Below are positions 1 to 61,361 of a stretch of 64,000 nt of DNA, piece after piece. A program made the position numbers and the translations under genes. Every line of letters starts with the position of its first letter. Within the stretch, counting starts at the first letter, position 1. The DNA comes from Bathymodiolus japonicus methanotrophic gill symbiont (GTDB taxonomy: Bacteria; Pseudomonadota; Gammaproteobacteria; Methylococcales; Methylomonadaceae). Where the stretch lies: assembly GCF_019721995.1 (NCBI RefSeq), contig NZ_BLYC01000001.1, positions 1 through 64,000 of the forward strand, read 5' to 3'. A model generated the notes under the pieces. That model was not told where the DNA came from. It searched no databases and saw nothing but the letters and a program-made list of their open reading frames with translations.

Positions 1-1349
1 GCCTCACGCCCCCATCCTTCATAAAGCTTCCAGTCCTCAAAGAAAACCTCAATCAGCCATCTCAACGTATAGGCTTGAATAATATCTTGTGTGCGCCAAG
101 TCAGGTCTGTCGCCACTAAATAGCGATAGTCGTTTTCACCGTCATATTTTAAGGCAATGACAAAGCGCTTTTTACTGTGAGAACTCACCTTTAATCGTGC
201 ACTGCTGACAGTCACTTTAATCTCTTTGCCGCCACGTACACGTATTATCTGATCAATGCCTTTGTTAATCGAATTAAAGTAGCTCTCGACTGACCTTATT
301 CTACCTCTATATTCAATATTTTGGTTTTTACGTAATTGGCTAATCACCTGCGAGCCTCCAGATTCTTTAGCGGCTTCGTCCATAAAGGCTTTTTCACCAT
401 ACAGCGCATCAGCCAGTACGCCTTTAATTTTAATCAGGCTATGCGCAACTTTAAACTCTTTTAATAAGCCTAATGCAATCTCTGTTTTGGTCGGGTAGGC
501 ACTGTCACGTTCAGGCTTAATAGGCCGATCTTTCGCTGAAAATCATGGAAACGGAGCTTAGCGAAGTGTTGATTTTTAGTCCCTGATAGGCGACAGGGCA
601 ATTTGCTGATTCGACGTGTGCTAGCAGCACGCGAGAGGAGCAAGAATTGCATTCCGAATAGCCGTCTAGCCAGTGAGGTAGTAATGACGAAGCGGCTTTT
701 GTGCGTAGTCGTTGCGGACGCAGGGCGTTCAGGGCATCTCCCATCCGCTGCGTAGGTGAACGAATTATGGCGACAGGAGTCCCGGAATTTCGTGAGGTAG
801 CATGGCGCGCCTGTTTTGCTATACCGCTCTTTTTCAACCGTTTATCTTCTTTATCCCACTGCTTTAAGGCTGTGGATCCGGCATATAAAAGAAAAAACCG
901 ACAGGCACTGTAATGGATGAGGTAACTAGCAGCAATAATACTATCGTTTGTCCATTAACATACCCGCCGGAGCCTTTGTGTTTCTGCTTGTAAACCTTAT
1001 AAATACGTTTTGTAGACTTAGATCGTGCTCGGTCTGATTCATCAAAGGCCAACACACCTTCAGTAATGCCATAACGTTTTAAAATTAAGACCACACTCAC
1101 CCGTAGCAAACAGTCCCAGGGTATACTTGCTTTACGAAATACCCAGGATAATGCGGCTACTTTGCAATCTCCAAGGCTTGCTCGCTCAAACTTAGCCCAG
1201 CAAACAGAGTTCATTAGCAGTATGCCCGTTAAACAAGTGCCCAACCAAGCGGCTTGAATCCGTGTCAAAGCGGCTCCGGGTTTTAGCTGATTGAGCGCAT
1301 CATTTAAATCGTCAATATAGCTTTGGATAAAGGTGGCTGGGGCATTCAT
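1..1349 (-). pseudogene. IS4-type DDE transposase, broken (runs off left edge)
   Basis: Read on the minus strand from an ATG at 1349. The N-terminal part (1349-864) contains a DDE-type acidic motif (AFDESDRARSKS). The second part (533-1) contains GVLADALYGEKAFMDE and the IS4 signature Y-(2)-R-(3)-E-(6)-K in YTLRWLIEVFFEDWK. Two lesions separate the parts: element A1 at 534-813, and a 1-2 nt frameshift near 880 (after MPDP). Deleting A1 exactly joins RLKKSGIAK to KDRPIKPERDSAY in one frame, so the A1 site itself is reversible while the frameshift is not. The C-terminus lies beyond the window. Element B1/C1 sits one base upstream of the start codon. The IS family call rests on the YREK motif only. 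Confidence 0.8.
534..813 (+). mobile_element. A element, copy A1 (280 bp)
   Basis: Starts CGCTGAAAATCATGG and ends GGCGCGCCTG. It lies antisense within the IS4-type transposase. No target duplication is seen; exact removal restores the transposase frame locally. Confidence 0.92.
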
Positions 1350-1350
1350 T

Positions 1351-1502
1351 CGCTGAAAATCAGGGAAACGGAGCCTAAGCGAAGTGATGATTTTTAGTCC
1401 GCGATAGCCGTAGGGCCGTTATTTTGTCGGAGTCTGAGCGTTAGCGAAGGTGGAGACAAAATAAAAGGCCATCCGACACGGCGTCAAGTCATTTGGAGCC
1501 TA
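1351..1502 (+). mobile_element. B element 5' half (B1, partial)
   Basis: First 152 bp of a B element of the sub-type with CAGGGAAACGGAGCCTAAG. It stops after TTGGAGCCTA, where element C1 begins; the 3' half of B (GTTCCGACCC hairpin onward) is absent. Confidence 0.88.
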
Positions 1503-1762
1503 CGCTGTCAGCCCCGGACGGGCTGATAGTCTCCAGAAGGCGCAGGGAAATTTGCCAATCCGAAGTGCGCGATAGCGCGCGAGGGAGGCTAAAATTTTAT
1601 CCCGAATAGCCGTAGAGCCATTTGTGGTAGCCATGACTGAGCTGCTTTGTGCTCAGTCTGTGGCGGACGCAGGGCGGCTGGAGCATCTCCTATTCGCTGC
1701 GTAGGTGAACGAATTACGGCGACAGGAGTCCCGGAATTTCGTGAGGTAGCATGGCGCGCCTG
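1503..1762 (+). mobile_element. C element, copy C1 (260 bp)
   Basis: Starts CGCTGTCAGCCCC and ends GGCGCGCCTG. It directly follows the truncated B1 and forms a B-C composite immediately upstream of the IS4-type transposase start. Confidence 0.9.
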
Positions 1763-1837
1763 TAATATTAGTAATATCTAATATTTCAGAAAAATAAGCA
1801 TTAGCTGATATTCTTATGCTTTAAAAACTAGGAAACT

Positions 1838-3265
1838 TCAGTTATATAAATCCAGGTATTGTTGAGCGCTTTTCCGCCAGGAAAAATCTTTCCGCATGGC
1901 ATTTTTTTGTAATTGCTGCCAGGTTCTTTTGTTTGCATAGAGCAAAATCGCACGTTTAATTGTTTCCAGCATAGTTCCCACAGACGGTTCTTCAAATACA
2001 AAACCGGATGCTATTTTATCTGCGATGGTATGCGGCATGGCGTCTACAACCGTGTCCGCCAGACCTCCTGTTTTTCGGACGATAGGTAGCGTGCCATAGC
2101 GCTGGCTATATAATTGATTGAGTCCACAAGGCTCAAAGCGGGACGGCATCAAAAACATATCCGCTCCGGCTTCAATTAAATGCGCCAGGTCTTCATTATA
2201 GCCTATGGATACCGAGATTTTATCAGGGTATAAGTAACTTAAGTTTTTAAGTCGATGTTCAAAGCCTTTCTCGCCGGAACCTAGTAAGACAAATTGTACA
2301 GGGTAGTTAACCAGATCATCCAGACAGTCAATTACCAGGTCTATGCCTTTTTGGTCAACCAGGCGACCAATCAGACCTATCATCGGGATAGCTGGGTCTT
2401 CAGGAAGTGAAAAATGCTGTTGTAATGCGGTCTTATTGCTCGCTTTTTTAGCCAGACTGTCAATAGTGTAGTTCTGTGCAATTCGCGGGTCTTTTTCAGG
2501 ATTCCATATGTCAGTATCTATGCCATTTATAATACCATTCAGCTCATGGTGACGATGGTGTAATAGTCCCTCTAAGCCATAGCCATATTCTGCAGTCTGT
2601 ATTTCCAACGCATAATTTGGACTGACTGTGGTGATATGATCAGCACAGGCGATACCGCCCTTGATAAAGGAAAGTAGCTCATGAAATTCCAGTGCGCCAG
2701 GATGCCATAATTGCCCCGGTAGATTCAAGTCAAAATAAGTAGCTTCCGGAAATAATCCCTGGTACGCCATATTGTGTATCGTAAACACGGTAGAAGGGCG
2801 ATTCGGCTCTAAAGTTAACAATGCAGGAACCAGTCCACTTTGCCAGTCATTGCAATGCACAATATCGGCTTTCCAGTCCAGATGAGCACGATTTTGGGAA
2901 ATCTCGACGGCAGCACGACAAAACAAGGAAAAACGTGCGGCGCTATTTGCCCAGGCGTTACCAAATTCATCAGTATAAGGATTGCCGGGAATATCAAAAT
3001 ATTCAGGACAATCAATGAGCCATACGATAACATCAGTATCGGGTAATCGAGTTTCCAGAATATTCACGTCACGATTATCGATACGCAGAGTGCAACGATA
3101 TTCTACATCTTCCTTTAGCTTCAGTGCGTGATATTTAGGGATCATGATGCGTACATCCTGATCCAATTCAGCTAAAGCGATAGGCAGACTTCCTGCAACA
3201 TCCGCGAGTCCTCCTGTTTTAATGAGAGGATGTACTTCACTACTTACAAACAGAATCTTTTTCAT
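1838..3265 (-). CDS. glgA: Glycogen synthase (ADP-glucose, GT5)
   Basis: Transfers glucose from ADP-glucose to the growing alpha-1,4-glucan. The 475-residue length is normal for bacterial GlgA. The N-terminal ADP-glucose loop KTGGLADVAGSLP is at about residues 17-29. The C-terminal Rossmann domain has PSRFEPCGLNQLY and a second TGGLADTV motif. It lies 3 bp downstream of glgB on the same strand, so the two are almost certainly co-transcribed, opposite to the divergent glgC-GH57-malQ set. The stop codon is followed by CTGAAGTTTCC, which resembles a D-element end, but no further D sequence is present. Confidence 0.96.
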   Translation of the reverse strand: MKKILFVSSEVHPLIKTGGLADVAGSLPIALAELDQDVRIMIPKYHALKLKEDVEYRCTLRIDNRDVNILETRLPDTDVIVWLIDCPEYFDIPGNPYTDEFGNAWANSAARFSLFCRAAVEISQNRAHLDWKADIVHCNDWQSGLVPALLTLEPNRPSTVFTIHNMAYQGLFPEATYFDLNLPGQLWHPGALEFHELLSFIKGGIACADHITTVSPNYALEIQTAEYGYGLEGLLHHRHHELNGIINGIDTDIWNPEKDPRIAQNYTIDSLAKKASNKTALQQHFSLPEDPAIPMIGLIGRLVDQKGIDLVIDCLDDLVNYPVQFVLLGSGEKGFEHRLKNLSYLYPDKISVSIGYNEDLAHLIEAGADMFLMPSRFEPCGLNQLYSQRYGTLPIVRKTGGLADTVVDAMPHTIADKIASGFVFEEPSVGTMLETIKRAILLYANKRTWQQLQKNAMRKDFSWRKSAQQYLDLYN

Positions 3266-3268
3266 AGC

Positions 3269-5449: not shown

Positions 5450-5546
5450 ATTTCAGGGCCTCAGTGTGATAGAATCATTTTCGTAGAAGAATAGTAACAA
5501 AAATAAGACCAAAAGTAATAGCATATTTATTAAATAGAGGATATCA

Positions 5547-13334: not shown

Positions 13335-13682
13335 TTTAATAGGTTTGTTATATCCAGGGGGTGGTTAAAAGTACATTATTTTGTCTAAGGAACGCGCACG
13401 GATAAGCTGGGTACACCGCTACGCTGGCGCAGAATTTATGTTCGTATTCAATGCGTAGAAGGCGAGCATAAACACAAGTTATTTGTTGAATTTATTTCGT
13501 GCACGTTTGTATGGCAGGTTTGCTTTATTTTCAGGAATGCCATAATAACATCAATTACAGCTATTGAGTTATGCGTTGAATCAGGCGTGAATTAATGGGC
13601 TTATTTCTGTGCTATCCTGCTTATAGTCATATTTATGATTCAGCATTAATTCGACTGAATTCTATATCTAGATATGTACTAA
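13335..13682. other. Intergenic region with an imperfect repeat
   Basis: No gene is seen. Bases about 13386-13510 resemble 26970-27138 (see that entry). The rest is AT-rich with no recognised feature. Confidence 0.6.
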
Positions 13683-14181
13683 CTGAAGTTTCCCAATAAT
13701 TATTTATGGTAAAATTGAAACTATGCTACAACTATATGAAAAAAATAGTCTTTTCATTCGTTTCAAATGCTATTGCCTACGCTGAAAATCCTGGAAACGG
13801 AGCTTTAGCGAAGTGAAGATTTTTAGTCCGCGATAGCCGTAGGGCCGTTGTTTTGTCGGAGTCTGAGCGTTAGCGAAGGTGGAGACAAAATAAAAGGCCA
13901 TCCGACACGGCGTCAAGTCATTTGGAGCCTATGTTCCGACCCCTTGTTGGGTCGGGACGAGGTGACGAGGACGAATCGGGGCCGCCGGAGGCATAAGTGG
14001 TCGCGTTAAGTTTTTGCTGCTTGCTTGGGCTGGGATGCCCAAAACAAGCTTTCGCAAAAATAGCGACTCCCCGAAGGGGAATTAAGTAGGGGTTTGCTAT
14101 AAACATGGCAAAACCACCTAAAATAAACCTCGATACACCAGCATTGTGTATTTCAGCTACTCAATAATTGGGAAACTTCAG
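13683..14181 (+). mobile_element. D element (MITE), copy D1, interrupted by B2
   Basis: Begins CTGAAGTTTCCCAAT and ends ATTGGGAAACTTCAG. It is the 204-bp D sequence split by B2 at 13780-14074. Removing exactly 295 bp of B2 recreates GCCTAAGGGGAATT as found in uninterrupted copies D5 and D6. No convincing target duplication is visible here. Confidence 0.9.
13780..14074 (+). mobile_element. B element, copy B2 (295 bp)
   Basis: Starts CGCTGAAAATCCTGG and ends GACTCCCCGA. It is inserted in MITE D1 with no target duplication. The uninterrupted D copies prove its exact ends up to a one-base ambiguity. Confidence 0.95.
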
Positions 14182-14192
14182 CTAAGTACTAT

Positions 14193-14472
14193 CGCTGAAA
14201 ATCATGGAAACGGAGCTTAGCGAAGTGGTGATTTTTAGTCCCTGAAAGGCGACAGGGCAATTCGCTGATTCGACGTGTGCTAGCAGCACGCGAGAGGAGC
14301 AAGAATTGCATTCCGAATAGCCGTCCAGCCAGTGAGGTAGTAATGACGAAGCGGCTTTTGTGCGTAGTCGTTGCGGACGCAGGGCGTTCAGGGCATCTCC
14401 CATCCGCTGCGTAGGTGAACGAATTATGGCGACAGGAGTCCCGGAATTTCGTGAGGTAGCATGGCGCGCCTG
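14193..14472 (+). mobile_element. A element, copy A2 (280 bp)
   Basis: Full A sequence (CCCTGAAAGG variant of the second hairpin), lying 11 bp after D1 and within the last codons of the DUF4136 gene. Exact removal restores the native stop. Confidence 0.93.
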
Positions 14473-14743: not shown

Positions 14744-15038
14744 CGCTGAAAATCCTGGAAACGGAGCTTTAGCGAAGTGAAGATTTTTAGTCCGCGATAG
14801 CCGTAGGGCCGTTGTTTTTTCGGAGTCTGAGCGTTAGCGAAGGTGGAGACAAAATAAAAGGCCATCCGACACGGCGTCAAGTCATTTGGAGCCTATGTTC
14901 CGACCCCTTGTTGGGTCGGGACGAGGTGACGAGGACGAATCGGGGCCGCCGGAGGCATAAGTGGTCGCGTTAAGTTTTTGCTGCTTGCTTGGGCTGGGAT
15001 GCCCAAAACAAGCTTTCGCAAAAATAGCGACTCCCCAA
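14744..15038 (+). mobile_element. B element, copy B3 (295 bp)
   Basis: CCTGG sub-type, ending CCCCAA instead of CCCCGA. It is antisense in the DUF4136 gene. The frame is restored only if the two bases after CCCC are counted as part of the element, which fixes the 295-bp length. Confidence 0.93.
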
Positions 15039-15865: not shown

Positions 15866-15925
15866 GGTTTAATTCCTTAATTATGATAAAAAATGTAGGC
15901 TGGAAATCTTTGTGTTATTTTATAC

Positions 15926-16129
15926 CTGAAGTTTCCCAATTATTGAGTAGCCGAAATACACAATGCTGGTGTATCGAGGTTTATTTTAGGTGGTTTTGCC
16001 ATGTTTATAGCAAGCCCCTACTTAATTCCCCTTAGGCAATAGCATTTGAAACGAATGAAAAGACTATTTTTTTCATATAGTTGTAGCATAGTTTCAATTT
16101 TACCATAAATAATTATTGGGAAACTTCAG
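15926..16129 (-). mobile_element. D element (MITE), copy D2 (204 bp)
   Basis: Uninterrupted copy in reverse orientation relative to D1. It is flanked by TTTATAC on both sides, a 7-bp target duplication. It lies in the ftsH upstream region, 77 bp before the ftsH ATG, so it may alter that promoter. Confidence 0.92.
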
Positions 16130-16206
16130 TTTATACCATTAAGAGGCAGGCAAAATACAGAAAAATCTAAGAATAAATATAACAGGCAAAATAACAGAGA
16201 AATAAA

Positions 16207-22219: not shown

Positions 22220-22514
22220 CGCTGAAAATCCTGGAAACGGAGCTTTAGCGAAGTGAAGATTTTTAGTCCGCGATAGCCGTAGGGCCGTTGTTTTTTCGGA
22301 GTCTGAGCGTTAGCGAAGGTGGAGACAAAATAAAAGGCCATCCGACACGGCGTCAAGTCATTTGGAGCCTATGTTCCGACCCCTTGTTGGGTCGGGACGA
22401 GGTGACGAGGACGAATCGGGGCCGCCGGAGGCATAAGTGGTCGCGTTAAGTTTTTGCTGCTTGCTTGGGCTGGGATGCCCAAAACAAGCTTTCGCAAAAA
22501 TAGCGACTCCCCAA
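22220..22514 (+). mobile_element. B element, copy B4 (295 bp)
   Basis: CCTGG sub-type ending CCCCAA, located at the 3' border of the IS630 remnant. Its central hairpin region reads GTTTTTTCGGAG where most copies have GTTTTGTCGGAG, a variant shared with B3. Confidence 0.92.
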
Positions 22515-22559: not shown

Positions 22560-23081
22560 TTAGGCGGTAACAACGAAATCTTCCCGCAATTTTTGCATAA
22601 CACAAATCACTTTACTGGCATCATACATATAAGTGTTAAAAGTTTGCACAACTGAATCATGAAGATCTTCAAAAGTTTTAAAATACTTCATATGAGTCGA
22701 ATCGCGTTTCGTATTTTTCCATAATTTCTCAATCGGATTAAAATCCGGCGAGAACGCAGGGAGACGTTCTACTGTCAAACGATCTACATTAGCTAACTTA
22801 AATTCCTTAATAACACCGCTTCCATGATACGGGGCACCATCTTCAATTAGAATAATCTTGCCTTTATAATAAGCCAGCAATTGTGTTAAAAACTCAACAT
22901 AGCTTTCACCATTAAAACGCCCAGATGTTTCAGCGTGTTGTAATATCATTGGCTTATAACTCTCGATTAAGACGTTGTCGGCAATAGAATATATCGCTTC
23001 CATAAAAAGCTTCTGTGTTGGATATTTCTCATTTTTTAAGCTTTTAAGAATAGCTAAAAATTCTTGAGGCAGCCCAGCTTC
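22560..23081 (-). pseudogene. IS630-type transposase, 5'-truncated
   Basis: The C-terminal part of an IS630/mariner-like DDE transposase. IEDGAPYHGSGV gives the second acidic residue and LPAFSPDFNPIEKLWKNTK the final glutamate. The N-terminal helix-turn-helix and first aspartate are missing: the frame (EAGLPQEFLAILKSLKNEKY upstream of the Met at 23003) stops at element B5, beyond which the sequence is unrelated. B4 sits at its other end. It is non-functional. Confidence 0.82.
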
Positions 23082-23636
23082 CGCTGAAAATCCTGGAAAC
23101 GGAGCTTTAGCGAAGTGAAGATTTTTAGTCCGCGATAGCCGTAGGGCCGTTGTTTTGTCGGAGTCTGAGCGTTAGCGAAGGTGGAGACAAAATAAAAGGC
23201 CATCCGACACGGCGTCAAGTCATTTGGAGCCTATGTTCCGACCCCTTGTTGGGTCGGGACGAGGTGACGAGGACGAATCGGGGCCGCCGGAGGCATAAGT
23301 GGTCGCGTTAAGTTTTTGCTGCTTGCTTGGGCTGAGATGCCCAAAACAAGCTTTCGCAAAAATAGCGACTCCCCCGCTGTCAGCCCCGGACGGGCTGATA
23401 GTCTCCAGAAGGCGCAGGGAAATTTGCCAATCCGAAGTGCGCGATAGCGCGCGAGGGAGGCTAAAATTTTATCCCGAATAGCCGTAGAGCCATTTGTGGT
23501 AGCCATGACTGAGCTGCTTTGTGCTCAGTCTGTGGCGGACGCAGGGCGGCTGGAGCATCTCCTATTCGCTGCGTAGGTGAACGAATTACGGCGACAGGAG
23601 TCCCGGAATTTCGTGAGGTAGCATGGCGCGCCTGTA
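23082..23636 (+). mobile_element. B element, copy B5, carrying C2 near its 3' end
   Basis: Full B up to GACTCCCC, then C2 at 23375-23634, then TA, which would be B's final two bases. The left flank is the IS630 transposase; the right flank is an unrelated coding remnant, so B5 marks a deletion junction. Confidence 0.85.
23375..23634 (+). mobile_element. C element, copy C2 (260 bp)
   Basis: CGCTGTCAGCC to GGCGCGCCTG, placed exactly after the CCCC of B5. Confidence 0.92.
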
Positions 23637-23846
23637 GCGTTTGAATTTTCGAGTGTCAGAGTCAGTGAACAAGTGCAGGCATTTGGCCCTGATCAGCAAG
23701 AGCTAAGCCATAAACTCAAATTGCAGGCATCGACCGAGTTAGCCCTTAAAGGCAGAATGCATACCGCTGCCGTGTGCGACCGGGCGGCTAGGGCATTAGC
23801 CGAAAACTTTAACAATTACTTTAAACGCAATAAAATACATACTTAG
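23637..23846 (+). pseudogene. Unidentified coding remnant (3' part)
   Basis: An open frame of 69 residues from the B5/C2 junction to TAG (FEFSSVRVSEQVQAF ... ALAENFNNYFKRNKIHT). Composition looks protein-coding: amphipathic helices and several Gln/Ala-rich stretches. The 5' end is missing at the repeat junction. The family is not recognised. Confidence 0.4.
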
Positions 23847-23853
23847 TTATAAA

Positions 23854-24337
23854 CTGAAGTTTCCCAATAATTATTTATGGTAAAATTGAAACTATGCTAC
23901 AACTATCGCTGAAAATCATGGAAACGGAGCTTAGCGAAGTGGTGATTTTTAGTCCCTGATAGGCGACAGGGCAATTCGCTGATTCGACGTGTGCTAGCAG
24001 CACGCGAGAGGAGCAAGAATTGCATTCCGAATAGCCGTCCAGCCAGTGAGGTAGTAATGACGAAGCGGCTTTTGTGCGTAGTCGTTGCGGACGCAGGGCG
24101 TTCAGGGCATCTCCCATCCGCTGCGTAGGTGAGCGAATTATGGCGACAGGAGTCCCGGAATTTCGTGAGGTAGCATGGCGCGCCTGATGAAAAAAACAGT
24201 CTTTTCATTCGTTTCAAATGCTATTGCCTAAGGGGAATTAAGTAGGGGTTTGCTATAAACATGGCAAAACCACCTAAAATAAACCTCGATACACCAGCAT
24301 TGTGTATTTCAGCTACTCAATAATTGGGAAACTTCAG
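23854..24337 (+). mobile_element. D element (MITE), copy D3, interrupted by A3
   Basis: 204-bp D sequence split by A3 at 23907-24186, with TTATAAA duplicated on both flanks (23847-23853 and 24338-24344). Deleting 280 bp restores CAACTATATGAAAAAAACAG as in D5 and D6. Confidence 0.93.
23907..24186 (+). mobile_element. A element, copy A3 (280 bp)
   Basis: Inserted in MITE D3 without target duplication. Comparison with intact D copies defines both ends of A to the base. Confidence 0.96.
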
Positions 24338-24558: not shown

Positions 24559-25113
24559 CGCTGAAAATCAGGGAAACGGAGCCTAAGCGAAGTGATGATT
24601 TTTAGTCCGCGATAGCCGTAGGGCCGTTATTTTGTCGGAGTCTGAGCGTTAGCGAAGGTGGAGACAAAATAAAAGGCCATCCGACACGGCGTCAAGTCAT
24701 TTGGAGCCTATGTTCCGACCCCTTGTTGGGTCGGGACGAGGTGACGAGGACGAATCGGGGCCGCCGGAGGCATAAGTGGTCGCGTTAAGTTTTTGCTGCT
24801 TGCTTGGGCTGGGATGCCCAAAACAAGCTTTCGCAAAAATAGCGACTCCCCCGCTGTCAGCCCCGGACGGGCTGATAGTCTCCAGAAGGCGCAGGGAAAT
24901 TTGCCAATCCGAAGTGCGCGATAGCGCGCGAGGGAGGCTAAAATTTTATCCCGAATAGCCGTAGAGCCATTTGTGGTAGCCATGACTGAGCTGCTTTGTG
25001 CTCAGTCTGTGGCGGACGCAGGGCGGCTGGAGCATCTCCTATTCGCTGCGTAGGTGAACGAATTACGGCGACAGGAGTCCCGGAATTTCGTGAGGTAGCA
25101 TGGCGCGCCTGGA
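24559..25113 (+). mobile_element. B element, copy B6, carrying C3 near its 3' end
   Basis: CAGGG sub-type. B runs to GACTCCCC, C3 follows (24852-25111), then GA closes B. It is inserted in codon 6 of the DUF4156 gene, same orientation as the gene. Confidence 0.92.
24852..25111 (+). mobile_element. C element, copy C3 (260 bp)
   Basis: Inserted between CCCC and GA of B6. Its last 12 bp (ATGGCGCGCCTG) open the reading frame of the downstream lipoprotein. Confidence 0.93.
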
Positions 25114-35830: not shown

Positions 35831-36639
35831 CATCAGTGTTCCCCTATCAATTGAGGCCGTGAAACTAACTTCGCCACAAGAGAGCTCATAAAGCACTGTA
35901 AAGACATTCCTGTTATTATTGCGTTTTGAACTGCCCGAATGGTATACGAGCTGATACGAGATATTCTTGCCTGGAAAAATAATGGATTCACAAAACGATC
36001 TCGTTTTTGAGCCTGTCGCTGAAAATCATGGAAACGTAGCTTAGCGAAGTGGTGATTTTTAGTCCCTGATAGGCGACAGGGCAATTCGCTGATTCGACGT
36101 GTGCTAGCAGCACGCGAGAGGAGCAAGAATTGCATTCCGAATAGCCGTCCAGCCAGTGAGGTAGTAATGACGAAGCGGCTTTTGTGCGTAGTCGTTGCGG
36201 ACGCAGGGCGTTCAGGGCATCTCCCATCCGCTGCGTAGGTGAACGAATTATGGCGACAGGAGTCCCGGAATTTCGTGAGGTGGCATGGCGCGCCTGTCTG
36301 GGCATGAACGAGCCCACAAAGGATGACGCTCTGCTAACAGGGCACGTTCCATACTTTCATTGCAGTGTTGGTGAATATGTTCAGAGAGTGGTAGGTCTTT
36401 AAGCATGGGTGATATCCGTTTATGAGGTGATTAAAACGGAAATTTTTAGAAAAATTCTTTCGGCAATTGCAAGCTTTATTTGAAATTATTTGTTGTTTTT
36501 TTACGGTGCCTACAGAGTATCTATTTGCTGTTATAAGTGATTAAAATCAAAAAGATGGAAATATTCGAGTGGTGCTACCTTCAGGTAGGTTATAGGCTGC
36601 TTTGTTTAGGTACTTCTTCTTTCAATGGGAACACTGATG
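35831..36639 (-). mobile_element. IS4-family remnant, internally deleted, with A4 at the deletion point
   Basis: Its ends (CATCAGTGTTCCC and GGGAACACTGATG) match those of the full element at 58705-60155, in reverse orientation. About 1 kb of the transposase, corresponding to 59047-60052, is missing and A4 sits exactly at the missing segment. The target duplication TCACCAAA is intact. Confidence 0.9.
36017..36296 (+). mobile_element. A element, copy A4 (280 bp)
   Basis: GGAAACGTAGC variant; the 3' end reads GAGGTGGCATGG instead of GAGGTAGCATGG. It lies within the IS4 remnant at its deletion junction. Confidence 0.93.
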
Positions 36640-41200: not shown

Positions 41201-41480
41201 CGCTGAAAATCATGGAAACGGAGCTTAGCGAAGTGTTGATTTTTAGTCCCTGATAGGCGACAGGGCAATTTGCTGATTCGACGTGTGCTAGCAGCACGCG
41301 AGAGGAGCAAGAATTGCATTCCGAATAGCCGTCCAGCCAGTGAGGTAGTAATGACGAAGCGGCTTTTGTGCGTAGTCGTTGCGGACGCAGGGCGTTCAGG
41401 GCATCTCCCATCCGCTGCGTAGGTGAACGAATTATGGCGACAGGAGTCCCAGAATTTCGTGAGGTAGCATGGCGCGCCTG
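41201..41480 (+). mobile_element. A element, copy A5 (280 bp)
   Basis: Sense orientation in prsK with no target duplication; removal joins NKNFFQ to YNYDYREEW in frame. Confidence 0.95.
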
Positions 41481-42084: not shown

Positions 42085-43372
42085 TCAAGTCATAAGTACA
42101 TAACCCAATAAATTTTTCATATCTATCCCAGTCAGCTCTTCAAATACCTCATACGCTGAAAATCCTGGAAACGGAGCTTTAGCGAAGTGAAGATTTTTAG
42201 TCCGCGATAGCCGTAGGGCCGTTGTTTTGTCGGAGTCTGAGCGTTAGCGAAGGTGGAGACAAAATAAAAGGCCATCCGACACGGCGTCAAGTCATTTGGA
42301 GCCTATGTTCCGACCCCTTGTTGGGTCGGGACGAGGTGACGAGGACGAATCGGGGCCGCCGGAGGCATAAGTGGTCGCGTTAAGTTTTTGCTGCTTGCTT
42401 GGGCTGGGATGCCCAAAACAAGCTTTCGCAAAAATAGCGACTCCCCGAAGGTGTTTTGTAATTGAGACACTTTTTAGGGCGACTATTTAGCTTATCAACG
42501 GCTATAAAAACCTCTTTTATCGTAACATCAATCAACTCCATTACTTTAGGGAAATACTGTCTTAATAAGCCATTAGCGTTCTCATTTTGCCCTCTTTCCC
42601 AAGAGCTGTAGGGAGTCGCAAAATACGTATCACAGCCTAGTGCTTCTGCTATTTTTTCATGCAGGGTAAACTCTTTCCCGTTATCAAAAGTAATTGTTTT
42701 AACAAAGCTTTTTATAGGATCAAGCATTAAAATAGTTGCGTCTAATACATATTGAGCCTTTTTCCCCGCTAAAGGGAAGGCCAACCGTAATTTAGAGACT
42801 CGCTCATCCAACGTTACAATCGCCCCTTTGTGATTTTTCCCAATGATTGTATCTGCCTCCCAACCACCTATACGCTTACGGTTGTTGACCTCTTCAGGAC
42901 GCTCATCTATATCGACTCTATTAGGGATTCCTGTCCTATTATGGGCTGACCCATACCGCTTGCGATAGGTTTTGTTCTGATGCCGAAGATGCTTGTATAG
43001 TTCACCCCCTGCCTTTTTGTCCGCCAGAATATGCTGGTAGATTGTTTCATGATGAAGACTAATTATACCTTCTTGTTTTAACCGCCCTGCAATCTGCTCA
43101 GGACTCCAGTCATCCTCAATGCGAACATTAACAATGCCTTTTATTTCATCCGTTAATTTAACCTCTTTAGGCTTGTTTTTGTGTCGTTCTTGGGCAAAAT
43201 CTTCTGCTTGTTTATGCCTGTAGCCTCTTTGACCTGTATTGCGTTTAATCTCGCGTGAAATATTGCTTTGGCTTCGTTCTAAGGCTTCTGCTATTTTATT
43301 CTGTGAAGTTCCCTTTTTTAATTCAATTTCTATATAATATCTTTCTTCAGGACATAGGTGTGTATAGCTCAT
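42085..43372 (-). pseudogene. IS30 transposase, C-terminus cut by B7
   Basis: The N-terminal helix-turn-helix (LCPEERYYIEIELKKGTSQN) and the DDE core (GGWEADTIIGK, KTITFDNGKEF, FATPYSSWERGQNENANGLL) are intact. B7 enters after LNYKTP, so the present frame ends in 22 residues encoded by the element antisense strand, at 42380. Removing 295 bp gives LNYKTPYEVFEELTGIDMK and a natural TGA at 42085. Loss of about 25 residues may or may not abolish activity. Confidence 0.9.
42154..42448 (+). mobile_element. B element, copy B7 (295 bp)
   Basis: CCTGG sub-type ending CCCCGA, antisense within the IS30 transposase. Exact removal restores the native C-terminus. Confidence 0.95.
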
Positions 43373-43625
43373 TTGTAGCCTCTGTAAATTGTTTGGTAGC
43401 TGTTTACTTTACACCTATGTCTTGTCTTAATTCAACAGGTGTTAGTCTAGCCAATACTTGCAGAGGGTTATGCACTTATTATACGAATTCAGGATTGTTA
43501 AAAATGCGGAAAATCATAAGCACAACCCGGAATTTATTAATGATGCGATTGATACCCTGGAAAATGTGGTACGAAAAATGGAGCGTATCTTGACCCAGCT
43601 GAAAAAAGGTCAGGATCATGCTAAA

Positions 43626-43829
43626 CTGAAGTTTCCCAATTATTGAGTAGCTGAAATACACAATGCTGGTGTATCGAGGTTTATTTTAGGTGGTTTTGCC
43701 ATGTTTATAGCAAACCCCTACTTAATTCCCCTTAGGCAATAGCATTTGAAACGAATGAAAAGACTATTTTTTTCATATAGTTGTAGCATAGTTTCAATTT
43801 TACCATAAATAATTATTGGGAAACTTCAG
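43626..43829 (-). mobile_element. D element (MITE), copy D4 (204 bp)
   Basis: Intact, reverse orientation, flanked by the 8-bp duplication ATGCTAAA. Removal restores KKGQDHAKNNVVINLLDIL in prsK. Confidence 0.95.
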
Positions 43830-44304
43830 ATGCTAAAAATAATGTAGTAATAAATTTGTTGGATATTTTATCTGATGTAATACTGCAACAAGCGGGCAAC
43901 CAGCCAGCGGTTAAGCTTGATAGTGAATATACAGAGTGTGTTGTGCACGCGGATAAACAAAGACTAACTGCCATAATAGGACATCTGGTGAAAAATGCGC
44001 AAGATGCCACAGCGGATGACGGATCTGTTAAAATTCATTTAAGGTGTGAGCAGAAGTTTGCATATATTCAAATTATAGATACGGGCTGTGGTGTGACAGG
44101 GAAATTTATTGCCGAGCGGTTATTTAAACCTTTTGATACCACGAAAGGCAATGCAGGAATGGGGATTGGTGTTTATGAAGCACGCGAATATATTATTAGC
44201 CAGCGAGGAGAAATTTCAGTGCAGAGTGAAGTAGGTGTTGGAACGGTCTTTAGTATTAAATATCCGTTGCTGACGGCATAGGGTTTTATTATGGAAAAAG
44301 TATT

Positions 44305-44480: not shown

Positions 44481-44990
44481 AAAGTATTATTAGTTATCGA
44501 AGATGATCTCGGTCTGCAGAAGCAGTTTAAATGGAGTTTTGAAGCTTATAACGTCGTTATAGCAGGTGACAGAGCCGAAGAAATTGATGCGGTGCGGCGC
44601 TATAATCCAGCGGTAGTAACACTGGACCTGGGCTTGCCGCCCGATCCCGCAAATGCTAGTGAAGGCTTGGCGACGTTAAAAGAAATTATTGTGCTGGCGC
44701 CTAGGGCTAAAGTGATTGTTGTCACCGGTAATGATGATCGTGAAAATGCCATTAAAACGATTGCTATGGGGGCTTATGATTTTTATCAAAAACCGGTCGA
44801 TATAGATATTCTGAATTTGATTGTATCCAGAGCCTTTCAGCTTGCCGAGCTGGAGCAGGAAAACGCAAAAATTACAGCAAAAGCACGAACCGCTGTCCGG
44901 TATTATTGCTGCCAGTGATGCAATGCAAAAGTTATCCAGAACTATTGAGAGGATTGCCCCCAGCGATATTACCACGCTGTTATTAGGCGA

Positions 44991-45194
44991 CTGAAGTTTC
45001 CCAATAATTATTTATGGTAAAATTGAAACTATGCTACAACTATATGAAAAAAACAGTCTTTTCATTCGTTTCAAATGCTATTGCCTAAGGGGAATTAAGT
45101 AGGGGTTTGCTATAAACATGGCAAAACCACCTAAAATAAACCTCGATACACCAGCATTGTGTATTTCAGCTACTCAATAATTGGGAAACTTCAG
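44991..45194 (+). mobile_element. D element (MITE), copy D5 (204 bp)
   Basis: Intact, flanked by the 8-bp duplication TTAGGCGA. It is inserted in the Walker A codons of prsR; removal restores [11 protein letters not shown]. Confidence 0.96.
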
Positions 45195-45739
45195 TTAGGC
45201 GAGAGTGGTACGGGTAAAGAAGTATTGGCACGGGCGATACATGAGTTAAGCCCGCGAGCCGGCATGCCATTTGTTGCGGTTAATTGTGCTGCGATTCCTG
45301 AAAGTTTGCTAGAGAGCGAGTTATTTGGTTATGAAAAAGGTGCGTTCACCGGGGCAGTTAAACAGACTAAGGGTAAGATTGAATTTGCTGAGGGCGGCAC
45401 CTTTTTTCTGGATGAAATTGGCGATTTACCTTTTGCCCTGCAAGCCAAATTACTGCGTTTTATTCAGGAGCGTGTGGTAGAGCGCCTAGGTGGACGGGGA
45501 GAAATCCCAGTTGATGTACGTATTATTTGTGCAACGCATCAAAACATGCAAACCTTGATTGAGGCCGGTGGGTTTAGAGAGGATTTGTTTTATCGCGTCA
45601 GTGAGATGGTGGTTGATATCCCGCCATTAAGAGAGCGTGGAGATGATGCCATTGTCATCGCTAAGGTGTTGTTATCACGTTATAGTAAACGCGAAAATAA
45701 GTCGATCAAGGGCTTTACCGCCGAGGCTGAGCAAGCGAT

Positions 45740-45999
45740 CGCTGTCAGCCCCGGACGGGCTGATAGTCTCCAGAAGGCGCAGGGAAATTTGCCAATCCGA
45801 AGTGCGCGATAGCGCGCGAGGGAGGCTAAAATTTTATCCCGAATAGCCGTAGAGCCATTTGTGGTAGCCATGACTGAGCTGCTTTGTGCTCAGTCTGTGG
45901 CGGACGCAGGGCGGCTGGAGCATCTCCTATTCGCTGCGTAGGTGAACGAATTACGGCGACAGGAGTCCCGGAATTTCGTGAGGTAGCATGGCGCGCCTG
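45740..45999 (+). mobile_element. C element alone, copy C4 (260 bp)
   Basis: The only C copy not attached to a B sequence, which proves C is a unit of its own. Zero target duplication; removal joins AEAEQAI to ETYHWPGNIRQLE in prsR. Confidence 0.95.
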
Positions 46000-46041: not shown

Positions 46042-46336
46042 CGCTGAAAATCCTGGAAACGGAGCTTTAGCGAAGTGAAGATTTTTAGTCCGCGATAGCC
46101 GTAGGGCCGTTGTTTTGTCGGAGTCTGAGCGTTAGCGAAGGTGGAGACAAAATAAAAGGCCATCCGACACGGCGTCAAGTCATTTGGAGCCTATGTTCCG
46201 ACCCCTTGTTGGGTCGGGACAAGGTGACGAGGACGAATCGGGGCCGCCGGAGGCATAAGTGGTCGCGTTAAGTTTTTGCTGCTTGCTTGGGCTGGGATGC
46301 CCAAAACAAGCTTTCGCAAAAATAGCGACTCCCCGA
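46042..46336 (+). mobile_element. B element, copy B8 (295 bp)
   Basis: 42 bp downstream of C4 in prsR. Removal of 295 bp including the final GA gives RQLENKIKRAVVMADED in frame. Confidence 0.95.
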
Positions 46337-49066: not shown

Positions 49067-49734
49067 GTTTTTTCTTTGCAGCGCTGAAGCGTGATTTATT
49101 ACTGGTTTTTCGCCATCGTAACGATATTATTAATCCACTGGCTTTTTTTCTGATGGTGGCTGTGCTGTTTCCCTTAGGTATTAGCCCTGACCCAGAATTT
49201 CTATCAGAAGTAGCGCCAGGCGTTATCTGGGTGGCGGCTCTGTTAGCCTGCTTATTATCGGTCGATGGTATTTTTCGTGGCGATTATGAAGATGGCTCTT
49301 TAGAACAAATGCTGGTTAGTCCAGAGTCCTTACTGGTGTTAGTGCTGGCAAAAGTGCTGAGTCATTGGCTGGTGAGTGGCTTTTGTCTGGCAGTTATCTC
49401 GCCTTTAGTCGCGATGATGTTTTTTCTCCCTGAGCAAGGCTATCCTGCTTTAATAATGAGTTTAATATTAGGCACGCCTACATTAAGCTTAATGGGAGCT
49501 ATCGGAGCAGGTCTGACGGTAGGGCTGCGCAAAGGGGGCGTTTTAATCTCCTTATTGGTACTGCCGCTGTATATTCCGGTGTTGATTTTTGGCGCGGGTA
49601 CAGTACACGCAGGTAGCATGGGCTTGCCTATACAAGGTTATCTTGCTTTATTAGGTGCGATACTCATATTCAGTTTAATGCTGGCACCCTTTGCAATTGC
49701 AGCGACTCTAAAAATTAGCGTGCGCAGTCGCTGA
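49063..49734 (+). CDS. ccmB: Heme exporter membrane protein CcmB
   Basis: A 223-residue membrane subunit with six hydrophobic segments (FFAALKRDLLLVFRHRND start, FLMVAVLFPLGISPDPEFL). The start is GTG at 49063, overlapping ccmA. Element B9 entered directly before the stop codon: the first bases of B, CGCTGA, add Arg and a new stop, while removing B9 gives AGT TAG. So the protein is only one residue longer than native and should work. Confidence 0.93.
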   Translation: MSFFFAALKRDLLLVFRHRNDIINPLAFFLMVAVLFPLGISPDPEFLSEVAPGVIWVAALLACLLSVDGIFRGDYEDGSLEQMLVSPESLLVLVLAKVLSHWLVSGFCLAVISPLVAMMFFLPEQGYPALIMSLILGTPTLSLMGAIGAGLTVGLRKGGVLISLLVLPLYIPVLIFGAGTVHAGSMGLPIQGYLALLGAILIFSLMLAPFAIAATLKISVRSR

Positions 49735-50023
49735 AAATCAGGGAAACGGAGCCTAAGCGAAGTGATGATTTTTAGTCCGCGATAGCCGTAGGGCCGTTAT
49801 TTTGTCGGAGTCTGAGCGTTAGCGAAGGTGGAGACAAAATAAAAGGCCATCCGACACGGCGTCAAGTCATTTGGAGCCTATGTTCCGACCCCTTGTTGGG
49901 TCGGGACGAGGTGACGAGGACGAATCGGGGCCGCCGGAGGCATTAGTGGTCGCGTTAAGTTTTTGCTGCTTGCTTGGGCTGGGATGCCCAAAACAAGCTT
50001 TCGCAAAAATAGCGACTCCCCAA
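49729..50023 (+). mobile_element. B element, copy B9 (295 bp)
   Basis: CAGGG sub-type ending CCCCAA, inserted between the last sense codon and the stop of ccmB. Confidence 0.95.
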
Positions 50024-50131: not shown

Positions 50132-50426
50132 CGCTGAAAATCGGGGAAACGTAGCCTAAGCGAAGTGATGATTTTTAGTCCGCGATAGCCGTAGGGTCGT
50201 TGTTTTGTCGGAGTTTGAGCGTTAGCGAAGGTGGAGACAAAATAAAAGGCCATCCGACACGGCGTCAAGTCATTTGGAGCCTATGTTCCGACCCCTTGTT
50301 GGGTCGGGACGAGGTGACGAGGACGAATCGGGGCCGCCGGAGGCATTAGTGGTCGCGTTAAGTTTTTGCCGCTTGCTTGGGCTGGGATGCCCAAAACAAG
50401 CTTTCGCAAAAATAGCGACTCCCCGA
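50132..50426 (+). mobile_element. B element, copy B10 (295 bp)
   Basis: CGGGG sub-type with GGAAACGTAGCC; in the ccmB-ccmC gap, 108 bp after B9. Confidence 0.95.
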
Positions 50427-50479: not shown

Positions 50480-50759
50480 CGCTGAAAATCATGGAAACGT
50501 AGCTTAGCGAAGTGTTGATTTTTAGTCCCTGAAAGGCGACAGGGCAATTCGCTGATTCGACGTGTGCTAGCAGCACGCGAGAGGAGCAAGAATTGCATTC
50601 CGAATAGCCGTCCAGCCAGTGAGGTAGTAATGACGAAGCGGCTTTTGTGCGTAGTCGTTGCGGACGCAGGGCGTTCAGGGCATCTCCCATCCGCTGCGTA
50701 GGTGAACGAATTATGGCGACAGGAGTCCCGGAATTTCGTGAGGTAGCATGGCGCGCCTG
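50480..50759 (+). mobile_element. A element, copy A6 (280 bp)
   Basis: In the ccmB-ccmC gap, 53 bp after B10 and 42 bp before the ccmC ATG. Confidence 0.95.
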
Positions 50760-53033: not shown

Positions 53034-53312
53034 CGCTGAAAATCATGGAAACGTAGCTTAGCGAAGTGGTGATTTTTAGTCCCTGATAGGCGACAGGGCA
53101 ATTCGCTGATTCGACGTGTGCTAGCAGCACGCGAGAGGAGCAAGAATTGCATTCCGAATAGCCGTCCAGCCAGTGAGGTAGTAATGACGAGGCGGCTTTG
53201 TGCGTAGTCGTTGCGGACGCAGGGCGTTCAGGGCATCTCCCATCCGCTGCGTAGGTGAACGAATTATGGCGACAGGAGTCCCGGAATTTCGTGAGGTAGC
53301 ATGGCGCGCCTG
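53034..53312 (+). mobile_element. A element, copy A7 (279 bp)
   Basis: One base shorter than other A copies (GCGGCTTTGTG instead of GCGGCTTTTGTG) and with GAGGCGG for GAAGCGG. It abuts the right end of the IS110 element. Confidence 0.93.
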
Positions 53313-53347: not shown

Positions 53348-53391
53348 AACGTAACCCAGCATTTGCTTAATGTATAAGCTGGGTTACGTTA
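53348..53391. repeat. Short palindrome before ccmD
   Basis: Inverted arms ACGTAACCCAGC and GCTGGGTTACGT; a hairpin in the ccmD upstream region. Confidence 0.7.
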
Positions 53392-53429
53392 CCTGCGCTA
53401 CGCTTAGTTAAGCAAGCCCAGCCTACATT

Positions 53430-58315: not shown

Positions 58316-58412
58316 TAAGCTGTTATGGAGGGTAATGCTCTCTATCACACAGCTCTGAACGTTCAGGCTTTATACTCTGCAAGGTAGAAGGATGTGTTGC
58401 GAGAAATCTAAT

Positions 58413-58704
58413 ATGCAGGCCGATCTAAAAAATTACCGACAGCAGCTTAATAAGCATTATCTTGCTGATGAGCAGGAACTGATTAAAAAATTACTGCTTA
58501 ATCTAGCAGACTATCCTGCAACAAAAATTCATCAGCAAGCATCTTCTCTAGTCACAGCGATACGCGAGAATAAAGGCCAGCAGACGCTGGTTGAAGCATT
58601 TTTACACGAATATCAGCTCAATTCCGCAGAAGGTATAGTGTTAATGGAAATTGCCGAAGCCTTATTACGCATTCCAGACTCTCATACCCAGGATCTGTTT
58701 TTAC
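58413..58704 (+). pseudogene. putA: putA, N-terminal stump
   Basis: The first about 97 residues of the bifunctional proline dehydrogenase/P5C dehydrogenase: LKNYRQQLNKHYLADEQELI and FLHEYQLNSAEGIVLMEIAE then ALLRIPD, the PutA N-terminal arm. The IS4 element cuts the gene at 58705. An open frame continues 16 codons into the IS and stops. The rest of putA is not in the window, and the IS here has no matching target duplication, so a deletion removed the remainder. An alternative start at 58392 lies too close to its AGAAGG site. Confidence 0.85.
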
Positions 58705-60155
58705 CATCAGTGTTCCCATTGAAAGAAGAAGTACCTAAACAAAGCAGCCTATAACCTACCTGAATGTAGCACCACTCGAATATTTCCATCTTTTTGATTT
58801 TAATCACTTATAACAGCAAATAGACACTCTGTAGGCACCGTAAAAAAACAACAAATAATTTCAAATAAAGCTTGCATTTGCCGAAAAGATTTTCTAAAAA
58901 TTTCCGTTTTAATCACCTCATAAACGGATATCACCCATGCTTAAAGACCTACCACTCTCTGAACATATTGACCAACACTGCAATGAAAGTATGGAATGTG
59001 CCCTGTTAGCAGAGCGTCATCCTTTGTGGGCTCGTTCATGCCCAGAGTTGAAGGATATCGACTTTATTCGCCTTGGGTTATTACGCTGTATCAGTGTAGT
59101 CGATAGTGGTCGCCATTTCCTCCAAACCAATGAACAGATTCATGGCCAGCTGCTTCCCCACTCAACGTATTTTAAATCACTGAAGTCGCATAGACGAACA
59201 AGTATGCTTGAGGCATTTGAACAGCAGAGCTATCATCTTCACGCTGAAACACTGCTATCGCAAGGCATTGATTATCTTAAAGCATTCCCGGAACTTGACG
59301 AATACACCATAGAAGCAGTGGATGGACATTTTATTGATCATGCCTGCCATACTGAAAAAAACAGCAAGGGGAAAGTTTATGCGGCCGGGGGGATTTACGC
59401 GTTGAATCTCAGAAGTGGGTTGCTCAGATTTCTTTGTCTGGTGACAAACGGAACTCAGAGGCATCAAGAAATACCTGTGTTACGAGATCATATTGAAAAG
59501 CAAAACAAGGGAAATAACAGCTCTCAGAAACATCTCTATGTCTACGATAAAGCCGTCACCGACTTTGTCTGGTGGGATCGGCAGAAACGACATGCTAATT
59601 ACATGATTTCAATGCTAAAAGAAAATTCAATTGCGACTCTGGTTGAGTCTATCCCTTTTGACTCCCGCCATGAGATCAATACAGGGGTTGAAGCATACAG
59701 TGTGTACGAAAACAAGGGCATCAAATTTAACGTGGTGGATTACCGTGATCCAGAAACTGGAAAACTTCACCGGTTTGTGACAACCTTGCCAATGACTATT
59801 AACCCTGGAACCATTGCCATGCTGTATTTCAAGCGATGGACGATTGAAAAGACATTCAATAACACTAAAAGTAATGTCAAGGAAACTAAAGCTTGGTCTT
59901 CCAATACCCGCTCACTTGAAAATCAAATGCGCCTGACTGCAATGAGCTATAATTTAATGCGCGTGTTTGAAGAGATTTCAAAAACACAACAGCCAGAATT
60001 GATTCATCCATCGGATAAAAAATATAGCGAGGCTCTGGAGATTAGGCCGCAACAGGCTCAAAAACGAGATCGTCAGGAATGTCTTTACAGTGCTTTATGA
60101 GCTCTCTTGTGGCGAGGTTAGTTTCACGGCCTCAATTGATAGGGGAACACTGATG
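58705..60155 (+). mobile_element. IS4-family insertion sequence, complete (1451 bp)
   Basis: Inverted ends CATCAGTGTTCCC/GGGAACACTGATG. The flanks (TTTTTAC and TAAATAG) are not direct repeats, in contrast to the remnant at 35831, suggesting adjacent deletion or recombination between copies. Confidence 0.9.
58937..60100 (+). CDS. IS4-family transposase
   Basis: A 387-residue DDE transposase, apparently intact. The acidic residues lie in IEAVDGHFIDHACH and LYVYDKAVTDFVWW, and the YREK signature in YFKRWTIEKTFNNTK. It could mobilise the remnant at 35831, which still has both ends. Confidence 0.9.
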   Translation: MLKDLPLSEHIDQHCNESMECALLAERHPLWARSCPELKDIDFIRLGLLRCISVVDSGRHFLQTNEQIHGQLLPHSTYFKSLKSHRRTSMLEAFEQQSYHLHAETLLSQGIDYLKAFPELDEYTIEAVDGHFIDHACHTEKNSKGKVYAAGGIYALNLRSGLLRFLCLVTNGTQRHQEIPVLRDHIEKQNKGNNSSQKHLYVYDKAVTDFVWWDRQKRHANYMISMLKENSIATLVESIPFDSRHEINTGVEAYSVYENKGIKFNVVDYRDPETGKLHRFVTTLPMTINPGTIAMLYFKRWTIEKTFNNTKSNVKETKAWSSNTRSLENQMRLTAMSYNLMRVFEEISKTQQPELIHPSDKKYSEALEIRPQQAQKRDRQECLYSAL

Positions 60156-60201
60156 TAAATAGTTAAGATAGCCCTTCCCTTTTTATATTAATAATTTGTT
60201 A

Positions 60202-61361
60202 TTATTGCGCCGCAGGCGTTTTGATACTACTCTTTCGCTGAAAATCAGGGAAACGTAGCCTAAGCGAAGTGATGATTTTTAGTCCGCGATAGCCGTAGGG
60301 CCGTTGTTTTGTCGGAGTCTGAGCGTTAGCGAAGGTGGAGACAAAATAAAAGGCCATCCGACACGGCGTCAAGTCATTTGGAGCCTATGTTCCGACCCCT
60401 TGTTGGGTCGGGACGAGGTGACGAGGACGAATCGGGGCCGCCGGAGGCATAAGTGGTCGCGTTAAGTTTTTGCTGCTTGCTTGGGCTGGGATGCCCAAAA
60501 CAAGCTTTCGCAAAAATAGCGACTCCCCGATTTATAATAAACCTCCGCTGGCGTTCGATAGTCCAAGGACTGATGAATTCGCCTGTGATTGTAAAATTCA
60601 AAATAGTCTTTCAGCCCTAAATATGCTTCATTCACTGTCTGAAAGTCATTCAGATAGACCTTTTCATACTTGACTGATCGCCACAATCGTTCAACAAAAA
60701 TATTATCCAATGCGCGGCCTCTGCCATCCATGCTAACACGGATTCCTTTCTCCAATAAGGGCCCTGTAAATCGATTCGTTGTGAATTGACTTCCCTGGTC
60801 CGTATTAAAGATTTCACACTGTGATGAACTTAGTGTTTCATTAAGGGCTGCTATGCAAAAGTCTGCGTCCATTGTCGTACTTAACGCCCAATTAAGTACA
60901 TATCGGCTATGCCAGTCAATAATGGCCATCAGATAGACAAAACCATGCTTCATGCGGATGTAGGTAATATCCGTACTCCAGACCTGATTGCATCGCTCGA
61001 TCTGCAGGTTTCTCAGTAAATAAGGATAGATCTTATGCTCTGAGTTGCCCTGACTTAGTCTTGGCTTTGGATATACCGCTTCCAGCCCCATCTGCCTTAG
61101 TAACCGCCTCCCTCGCTTCGGATTGACCTGGTGCCCTTGAGATCTCAAATGCTCCGTCATTTTCAAGACACCGTAAAAGGGTGTTTCGGTATATTGTTTA
61201 TCCAATTCATGCATCAGCATCAGGGTATAGTCATCTATGCCAACGGGTCGGTAATATAAACTTGACCTGTTGATGCTCAACAAGCAACACTGCTTTCTGA
61301 TACTTAACTCTGAATGACCTGGCTCTATCCACATTTTTCGAGTCGCAAGTGTAAGAGTCAT
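60202..61361 (-). pseudogene. IS3 OrfB transposase, last residues split by B11
   Basis: DDE integrase core: WSTDITYIRMKHGFVYLMAI, IFNTDQGSQFTTNRF, and DNIFVERLWRSVKYEKVYL. B11 enters after EVYYK, so the present frame ends in an element-encoded tail at 60462. Removing 295 bp gives YYKKSSIKTPAAQ and TAA at 60202. Only about nine residues are affected, so it may still be active. It is expressed from orfA by probable -1 slippage on a run of nine A residues near 61370. Confidence 0.88.
60236..60530 (+). mobile_element. B element, copy B11 (295 bp)
   Basis: CAGGG sub-type with GGAAACGTAGCC, antisense in IS3 orfB, ending CCCCGA. No target duplication. Confidence 0.95.

Follow-up and report, generated by a model that had tools for sequence, protein, structure and literature searches.

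A gene-less family of folded mobile elements in Methylococcales inserts after CNNN and may rely on host topoisomerase I

How does a short DNA unit multiply when it carries no gene, no terminal inverted repeats and no target duplication? The question is raised by the window analysed here, positions 1 to 64,000 of contig NZ_BLYC01000001.1 (assembly GCF_019721995.1) from the Bathymodiolus japonicus methanotrophic gill symbiont, in which an initial annotation had described structured non-coding units of three related types, A, B and C, covering about 9% of the sequence. Locating the units one by one, we found all 22 in the places and numbers given: seven A of 280 bp, ten full and one truncated B of 295 bp, and four C of 260 bp. 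Every unit (22/22) lies on the + strand, and the 21 full units together account for 5,949 bp or 9.3% of the window, with both B copies broken by a C copy entered with a 2 bp overlap each and the truncated B (152 bp) counted as extra. Both A and C begin with CGCTG and end in CCTG. The 295 bp of B stood, with a correction to its 3' boundary: the unit runs from CGCTG to two variable bases past an invariant CCCC. The ends (CGCTG.../...CCTG or ...CCCCGA) do not form the terminal inverted repeats of a miniature inverted-repeat transposable element (MITE). We read the three unit types as lineages of a single gene-less mobile-element family of Methylococcales.

The first evidence is recurrence. We searched 864 kb of the 4.97 Mb draft genome (contigs C1, 1-464 kb, with the window as its first 64,000 bases; C2, 1-260 kb; C3, 1-140 kb) by blastn and recovered 216 near-full copies at 90% length or more and above 85% identity (A 68, B 87, C 61); the window units are thus not chance resemblances. 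The description as a 22-copy family holds for the window, whereas by extrapolation the whole genome would carry about a thousand copies or somewhat more (~1,200). Fixed length proved a property of the wider sample, one length being common to 57/68 A, 84/87 B and 60/61 C copies. The same genome is rich in other repeats and contains uninterrupted paralogues of many targets, which made a direct comparison with empty sites possible. Such a site was available for 97 of 204 copies, and in 84 of these 97 the joined flanks equalled the empty site in length (by the majority of hits); for the other 13 they differed by -12 to +20. A, B and C are therefore mobile and insert exactly, with neither duplication nor loss of target sequence, and the earlier view that they fit neither an ordinary MITE nor an insertion sequence (IS) stands on both their ends and their empty sites.

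Insertion follows a simple rule. We aligned the junctions of 203 of the 216 copies, dropping 13 whose end motif was unclear (A 9, B 2, C 2). Of the aligned copies, 195 (A 58/59, B 81/85, C 56/59) have a cytosine at -4 in the 5' flank, in a sample with a C content of 20.5%. Around this base the flank logo reads T 0.43 and C 0.05 at -5, A or T 0.72 at -2, and T 0.51 and G 0.03 at -1. The element's own 3' end likewise has C at -4, in 203/203 copies: it is CCTG in A and C, and in B (n=85) CCGA in 49, CCAA in 19, CCGC in 11 and other sequences in 6, with CTTG and CCAG occurring in relatives. Since the 3' end itself carries the CNNN signal, both junctions read CNNN after insertion. Only the C at -4 is fixed, and the conserved tetra- or pentanucleotide of IS200/IS605 targets does not appear.

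The rule extends to other genomes, as seen in four locus sets that overlap in part. Among loci of named genomes, collected with a search pattern chosen to exclude the symbiont's own copies, C stands at -4 in 52 of 56 candidate 5' ends. Here 59 of 64 loci had a match to a covariance model (CM) of the element core; one of the 62 CM matches, L274, was omitted as its 5' end is cut off, and the remaining 61 gave 56 candidate ends, three loci having two candidates and eight none. The loci without a CM match are L238, L246, L264, L275 (Rhizobium) and L280 (Oceaniovalibus), the last two probably being chance hits. Reading flanks directly, we found C at -4 in 25 of 26 elements of one set, with L151 the exception and four Methylococcus-type elements (starting GAAGGAG) counted from one base before their printed start; in 19/19 elements with a visible 5' end in a second set; and in 7/7 copies that bear an intron (see below). 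As the rule also holds in classes that begin with GAAGGAG and not with CGCTG, it is not tied to one sequence family.

Covariation reveals what is conserved inside these boundaries. A core alignment of 26 sequences has compensatory changes in 14 of 19 predicted pairs. In a full-length alignment of 30 B-type elements, 29 of them distinct, a structure of 65 pairs that we specified has 93.1% of its cells paired, and 33 pairs are changed on both sides. Cells changed on both sides number 191 versus 61 in shuffles, a value that 0/500 shuffles reach. The structure collapses when slid by one column, a control biased in its favour, as the first sequence and the consensus had served to derive it. Further pair types do not exceed shuffles (120/500 reach the observed value). 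The weakest helices are the two P4 helices, paired at 78 and 80%, while two pairs of the long-range helix P2 are exchanged jointly in 11 sequences. On the + strand, hairpin P1 lies just inside the 5' cut, P2 closes a branched core and hairpin P6 lies just inside the 3' cut. Wobble cells on this strand comprise 104 G.T versus 26 A.C, which identifies the + strand as the folded one. We set aside single-sequence DNA folding as structural proof, since A folds no better than its shuffles (z -0.09), in contrast to B (-3.05) and C (-3.44); the case rests on covariation. Together with the lack of any gene in the units, it bears out the annotation of structured, non-coding DNA. The elements resemble bacterial MITEs in being short, non-coding and abundant, but differ in lacking inverted repeats and duplications and in keeping their body through compensatory change.

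A separate observation concerns the bases after the first hairpin (TAGTCCCCGA), which resemble the 3' terminus of the element (GACTCCCCGA; columns 57-66 and 355-364 of alignment A3). Both could pair with one TCGGGG strand, and a switch between them is possible.

The distribution of the family is that of one bacterial order. DNA searches found relatives in 28 of 61 genomes, and the core CM matched 73 of 121 Methylococcales genomes in 26 of 38 genera, the symbiont being included in both counts. Across a phylum sample of 299 genomes the CM matched this genome and none of the 298 others, in a search whose stricter filters may lose weak matches and in which at most 34 candidates were scored per genome. 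Plasmid carriers occur in Methylobacter (for example at 292206 of the Methylobacter sp. YRD-M1 plasmid), Methylomonas and Methyloprofundus; three annotated plasmid records list no gene under the matches, the PLSDB gene table being incomplete. Contigs with a CM match also come from Methylobacter, Methylococcus sp., Crenothrix, Methylovulum, Methyloglobulus and Methylomagnum, and 50,697 phage records yielded 0 matches. Exact insertion against empty sites, and occurrence in independent genomes, some of them single-contig, dispose of the objection that the units are parts of an annotated element or assembly artefacts. They also belong to no described family that we could find: the window has 0 matches at gathering score among 4227 Rfam families, a search of 23000-24300 at E<=5 returned one lncRNA match only, far under its gathering score, and the open-licence papers listed contain no description that we found (PMC2267715 yielded no mention of Methylococcus). 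A covarying structure of ~300 nt in 26 of 38 genera without an Rfam match is a new family even without a mechanism, and it adds a large, structured, order-specific group to the known elements.

Orientation provides a further clue to mechanism. The majority orientation of each contig is shared by 178 of 216 copies, at 97/26 on C1, 57/9 on C2 and 3/24 on C3 (binomial p 8e-11, 1e-9 and 5e-5). GC skew outside the elements is 0.061 on C1 and 0.053 on C2, agreeing with element orientation on both. Leading strands are G-rich, and from C1 and C2 only this places the element + strand on the lagging-strand template, a bias also typical of IS200/IS605 elements. We rejected transcription as the cause: with the longest open frames of at least 150 amino acids as a crude proxy for neighbouring genes, copies are oriented 81:26 where the neighbouring frame shares the majority strand, and the bias persists at 97:12 where the frame opposes it.

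Which enzyme, then, could cut DNA behind CNNN? A review describes for topoisomerase I a preference for C four nucleotides 5' of the cut (PMC7587558), and an in vivo study of the Escherichia coli enzyme gives an AT-rich motif with TCNTTA/T at its centre, where cleavage falls at TA, 4 nt beyond a C that is strictly required (PMC9352719). Both ends of our elements have this C at -4, and the target logo agrees with the topoisomerase motif also at -5, -2 and -1; the two kinds of site share T at -5 and -1, AT-richness and, presumably in the case of the elements, a single-stranded substrate. Of the order's 121 genomes, 119 have a type IA topoisomerase domain, among them every one of the 41 that are element-rich (at least three CM matches). 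The symbiont has exactly one type IA match, a 776-amino-acid TopA, in which Arg169 of E. coli topoisomerase I (1ecl_A) is kept as R144. This arginine sets the cytosine preference according to PMC7587558, and a published Arg169Ala enzyme prefers A at -4.

We consider it nearly an even call, tilting slightly towards doubt, that the element is mobilised by the host's TopA in the form of a folded single strand of DNA. In the mechanism we propose, the element would become single-stranded on the lagging-strand template, where its fold would present both end sites. TopA, an enzyme that cleaves single strands after CNNN via a 5'-phosphotyrosine and rejoins them, would cut both ends, join donor flank to donor flank and free the folded strand. 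This strand would be taken up where a second cut after CNNN opens a lagging-strand template at another place, and replication of the other strand would keep the donor copy, allowing copy number to grow. The element body would be required in cis as a scaffold, which would explain both the constant lengths and the finding that no amplified short derivative was seen in the 864 kb. A little more tentatively, such elements may represent a class of transposons without a transposase, in which a folded nucleic-acid scaffold turns topoisomerase I, a universal housekeeping enzyme, into its transposase, reaches ~1,000 copies in one genome and persists across a bacterial order. If so, structure and a general DNA enzyme would suffice for mobility without a dedicated gene, and the elements would offer a test bed for wrong-partner rejoining by type IA topoisomerases. 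The same principle might explain orphan repeats without a dedicated transposase; for CGTC REPs, the question of a dedicated transposase is left open in PMC3733652.

Several points weigh against this proposal. The link between TopA and the element is drawn from sequence, as a signature match and partial exclusion, and the open-licence papers listed contain no precedent that we found for a topoisomerase-driven transposon or for any mobile element using such sites. The TopA pocket differs from that of E. coli at Arg173 (Y148) and Tyr177 (F152); in reverse gyrases, according to PMC7587558, Phe likely takes the role of Tyr177. Eight of 203 copies lack C at -4. The own 3' end of A and C has G at -1, a base nearly excluded at target position -1, so the two cuts are not read identically. 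C3 has a GC skew near zero (-0.010) despite its 24:3 orientation, and the branched, conserved fold exceeds the strict needs of DNA cut-and-paste. Finally, Y1 domains are also present in 41/41 element-rich genomes, which keeps an HUH enzyme acting in trans as a candidate.

That last point can be set against a wider survey. Among the 121 genomes, Y1 domains occur in 106, RVT_1 in 80, matches to this genome's RAYT-like protein in 79 and TnpB in 32; the numbers missing from the 41 element-rich genomes are 0, 6, 12 and 33, respectively. Only Y1 and type IA topoisomerase are found in all 41, and both therefore remain among the enzyme classes searched.

The strongest alternative to TopA, unlikely but to be taken seriously, is a non-autonomous IS200/IS605- or RAYT-type element, cut as single-stranded DNA at the feet of its terminal hairpins by a Y1 (HUH) enzyme supplied in trans, again by a lagging-strand-template route. 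The anatomy is similar: IS200/IS605 elements and their derivatives have terminal hairpins, no inverted repeats, no duplication and a lagging-strand bias (PMC6006769), and their cut signal in the 5' flank is matched at the 3' end of the element. Y1 domains are present in every element-rich genome, while 15 of the other 80 have none. REP, BIME and REPIN sequences with their RAYT offer a second parallel in their many copies, hairpins, single-stranded DNA and expected trans-acting enzyme, and the foot of P6 in this genome's B elements carries GTGG, a tag of the REP type. One intact gene for a RAYT-like tyrosine transposase is present here (222 amino acids, contig C5:60392-61057; L108 1201-1869, - strand), scoring 65 bits versus the 80-bit NCBIfam cut-off for REP-associated transposases.

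The details fit less well. Known Y1 systems read a conserved tetranucleotide via a guide beside the hairpin (PMC6006769), unlike the one obligatory cytosine here, and our elements have a long conserved body without an open reading frame. REPs measure 20-40 bp and bear a GTAG or CGTC tag, as given in PMC3733652, whereas our elements span ~250-310 bp with a branched fold. No GTAG, GTGG or CGTC tag is conserved 5' of P1, and relatives mostly have GCGG in place of the P6 GTGG of B. Of the 41 element-rich genomes, 12 lack a match to the RAYT-like protein, and no element copy lies within 1.5 kb of its gene. In this genome, 20 of 22 Y1 matches are partial domains; by the BLAST table none of the 22 is flanked by an element 5' part and 3' part, and no autonomous copy with tnpA between these ends was seen at these loci. 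We also sought an autonomous copy with its own transposase through orphan 5' and 3' ends in the 864 kb and around the 22 Y1 matches. The sole candidate pair (C2 201545 and 203730) proved to be an A copy broken by an insertion sequence.

Distinctly less probable is an enzyme of the order from a class outside those searched, such as IS91-type Y2 or IS110, that reads CNNN. Such an enzyme would accord with the failure of gene neighbourhood to tie any searched class to the elements, but its agreement with the rule published for topoisomerase I would have to be convergent.

More doubtful still is a retroposon, in which a folded transcript would be copied into a single-stranded DNA target by a reverse transcriptase (RT) in trans, for example that of group II introns dwelling in the elements. 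The branched + strand fold with its frequent G-U pairs speaks for this reading, and group II introns, too, show a lagging-strand bias. Such introns do reside here: the longer relative with an internal gene and shared ends that the initial annotation had proposed to look for exists in three genomes (G027, G131 and G109), where the first hairpin of the element houses a group II intron (matching D1-D4 and domain V of Rfam) with a 444-amino-acid RT. The intron sits in the P1 loop between GGA and AACGG. Its seven copies are L207-L211 (G027 and G131), L213 (G109) and L214 (G027); L207 spans 2,197 bp from CGCTG to CTTG, and the 3' part is complete in five of the seven, L213 and L214 having only pieces of it. 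In G101 (L212), an intron with a 436-amino-acid RT directly adjoins the 3' part of a related element, with no recognisable 5' end before it. The simple reading is intron homing into an abundant target. The RT belongs to the intron and is not the transposase of the element, and the introns are parasites inside it. Our elements share with mobile group II introns a structured, RNA-like sequence and the sites that true introns occupy, but they have no reading frame and, in the window, no Rfam group II match, including to catalytic domain V, which lies in the intron. We rejected the intron RT as the missing partner on its position inside P1 and on the lack of an RVT_1 match in 6 of the 41 element-rich genomes (G115, G139, G143, G069, G073 and G096). 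The 216 near-full copies far exceed fragments, and target-primed copying offers no obvious use for CNNN at the 3' end of the element itself.

Last, a bare OMEGA guide RNA (TnpB, IscB or IsrB) moved by a transposase in trans would suit the RNA-like structure of the element, its sharp end and the abundance of IS in its host genomes, yet is highly improbable: the TnpB zinc ribbon PF07282 has no match in this genome or in 33 of the 41 element-rich genomes, the IscB/IsrB domain PF14239 occurs in 7 of 61 genomes and not in this one, and Rfam shows no HEARO match in the window at gathering score or in 23000-24300 at E<=5.

Returning to the window, the individual units, all on the + strand, display the insertion rule in detail. 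The first A copy (534..813, 280 bp) has the 5' flank TCTTT with C at -4, the 3' end CCTG and a compared empty site. The truncated B, a 5' half at 1351..1502 with flank TCATT (C at -4), is severed by the C copy at 1503..1762 (260 bp; flank GCCTA, C at -4). The B copy at 13780..14074 (295 bp) lies within a second repeat of ~217 bp whose uninterrupted copies supply its empty site, and is followed by an A copy at 14193..14472 and a B copy at 14744..15038 (3' end CCAA), both with flank ACTAT. Another B copy ending in CCAA occupies 22220..22514 (flank TCAGC). Two C copies, at 23375..23634 and 24852..25111, are inserted behind the CCCC of a B copy's 3' end and so have C at -4. The first directly adjoins the B copy at 23082..23374, whose last two bases appear to have been displaced; the second follows the B copy at 24559..24851, whose last two bases (GA) are probably those at 25112-25113, beyond the C copy. 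Between these pairs, the A copy at 23907..24186 (flank ACTAT) also lies within the ~217-bp repeat, and its empty site was seen. Further along are A copies at 36017..36296 (CCTGT, C at -4) and 41201..41480 (TCAAT), a B copy at 42154..42448 (TCATA; empty site seen) and a C copy at 45740..45999 (GCGAT). The B copy at 46042..46336, with flank GAAAA, is the window's single exception to C at -4. The remaining units are B at 49729..50023 (GCAGT; 3' end CCAA) and 50132..50426 (TCTTT), A at 50480..50759 (GCCCC) and at 53034..53312 (279 bp, off by 1; TCCAT; empty site seen), and B at 60236..60530 (TCTTT). The ~217-bp repeat itself is MITE-like and present in both orientations (13672-13786 + 14071-14193, 15918-16142, 43613-43840, 44989-45197 and 61859-62077); it is broken by A and B copies and is a source of empty sites.

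Rearranged copies in the wider sample deserve mention. One A copy of ~100 bp (C1 167260-167359; flank C at -4) is internally deleted, joining 1-65 to 237-281; it was seen once and apparently has not been amplified. Three A fragments with a common internal start were considered as a short derivative and rejected: they are A copies interrupted behind A position ~51 (C1 253076, C1 406749 and C3 16850) by an insertion sequence, or a derivative of one, with the ends ACTCGATGTTCAAGTTTT, and the element has an insertion hot spot at this position. We likewise dismissed solo hairpins as a minimal form of transposon. The four found (C1 71277-71325, C1 303494-303541, C2 205075-205103 and C3 20752-20780) are perfect palindromes in which two 5' hairpins are fused, each side having C at -4. 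No empty site was found across them, their flanks match different places, and they are probably collapsed pairs of inverted copies, that is, genomic deletions. A further subtype, at C1 176868, C2 21796 and C2 76231, combines a B-like body with another first hairpin (CGCTGCCAGCC), and the lineages seem to swap their first hairpins in modular fashion.

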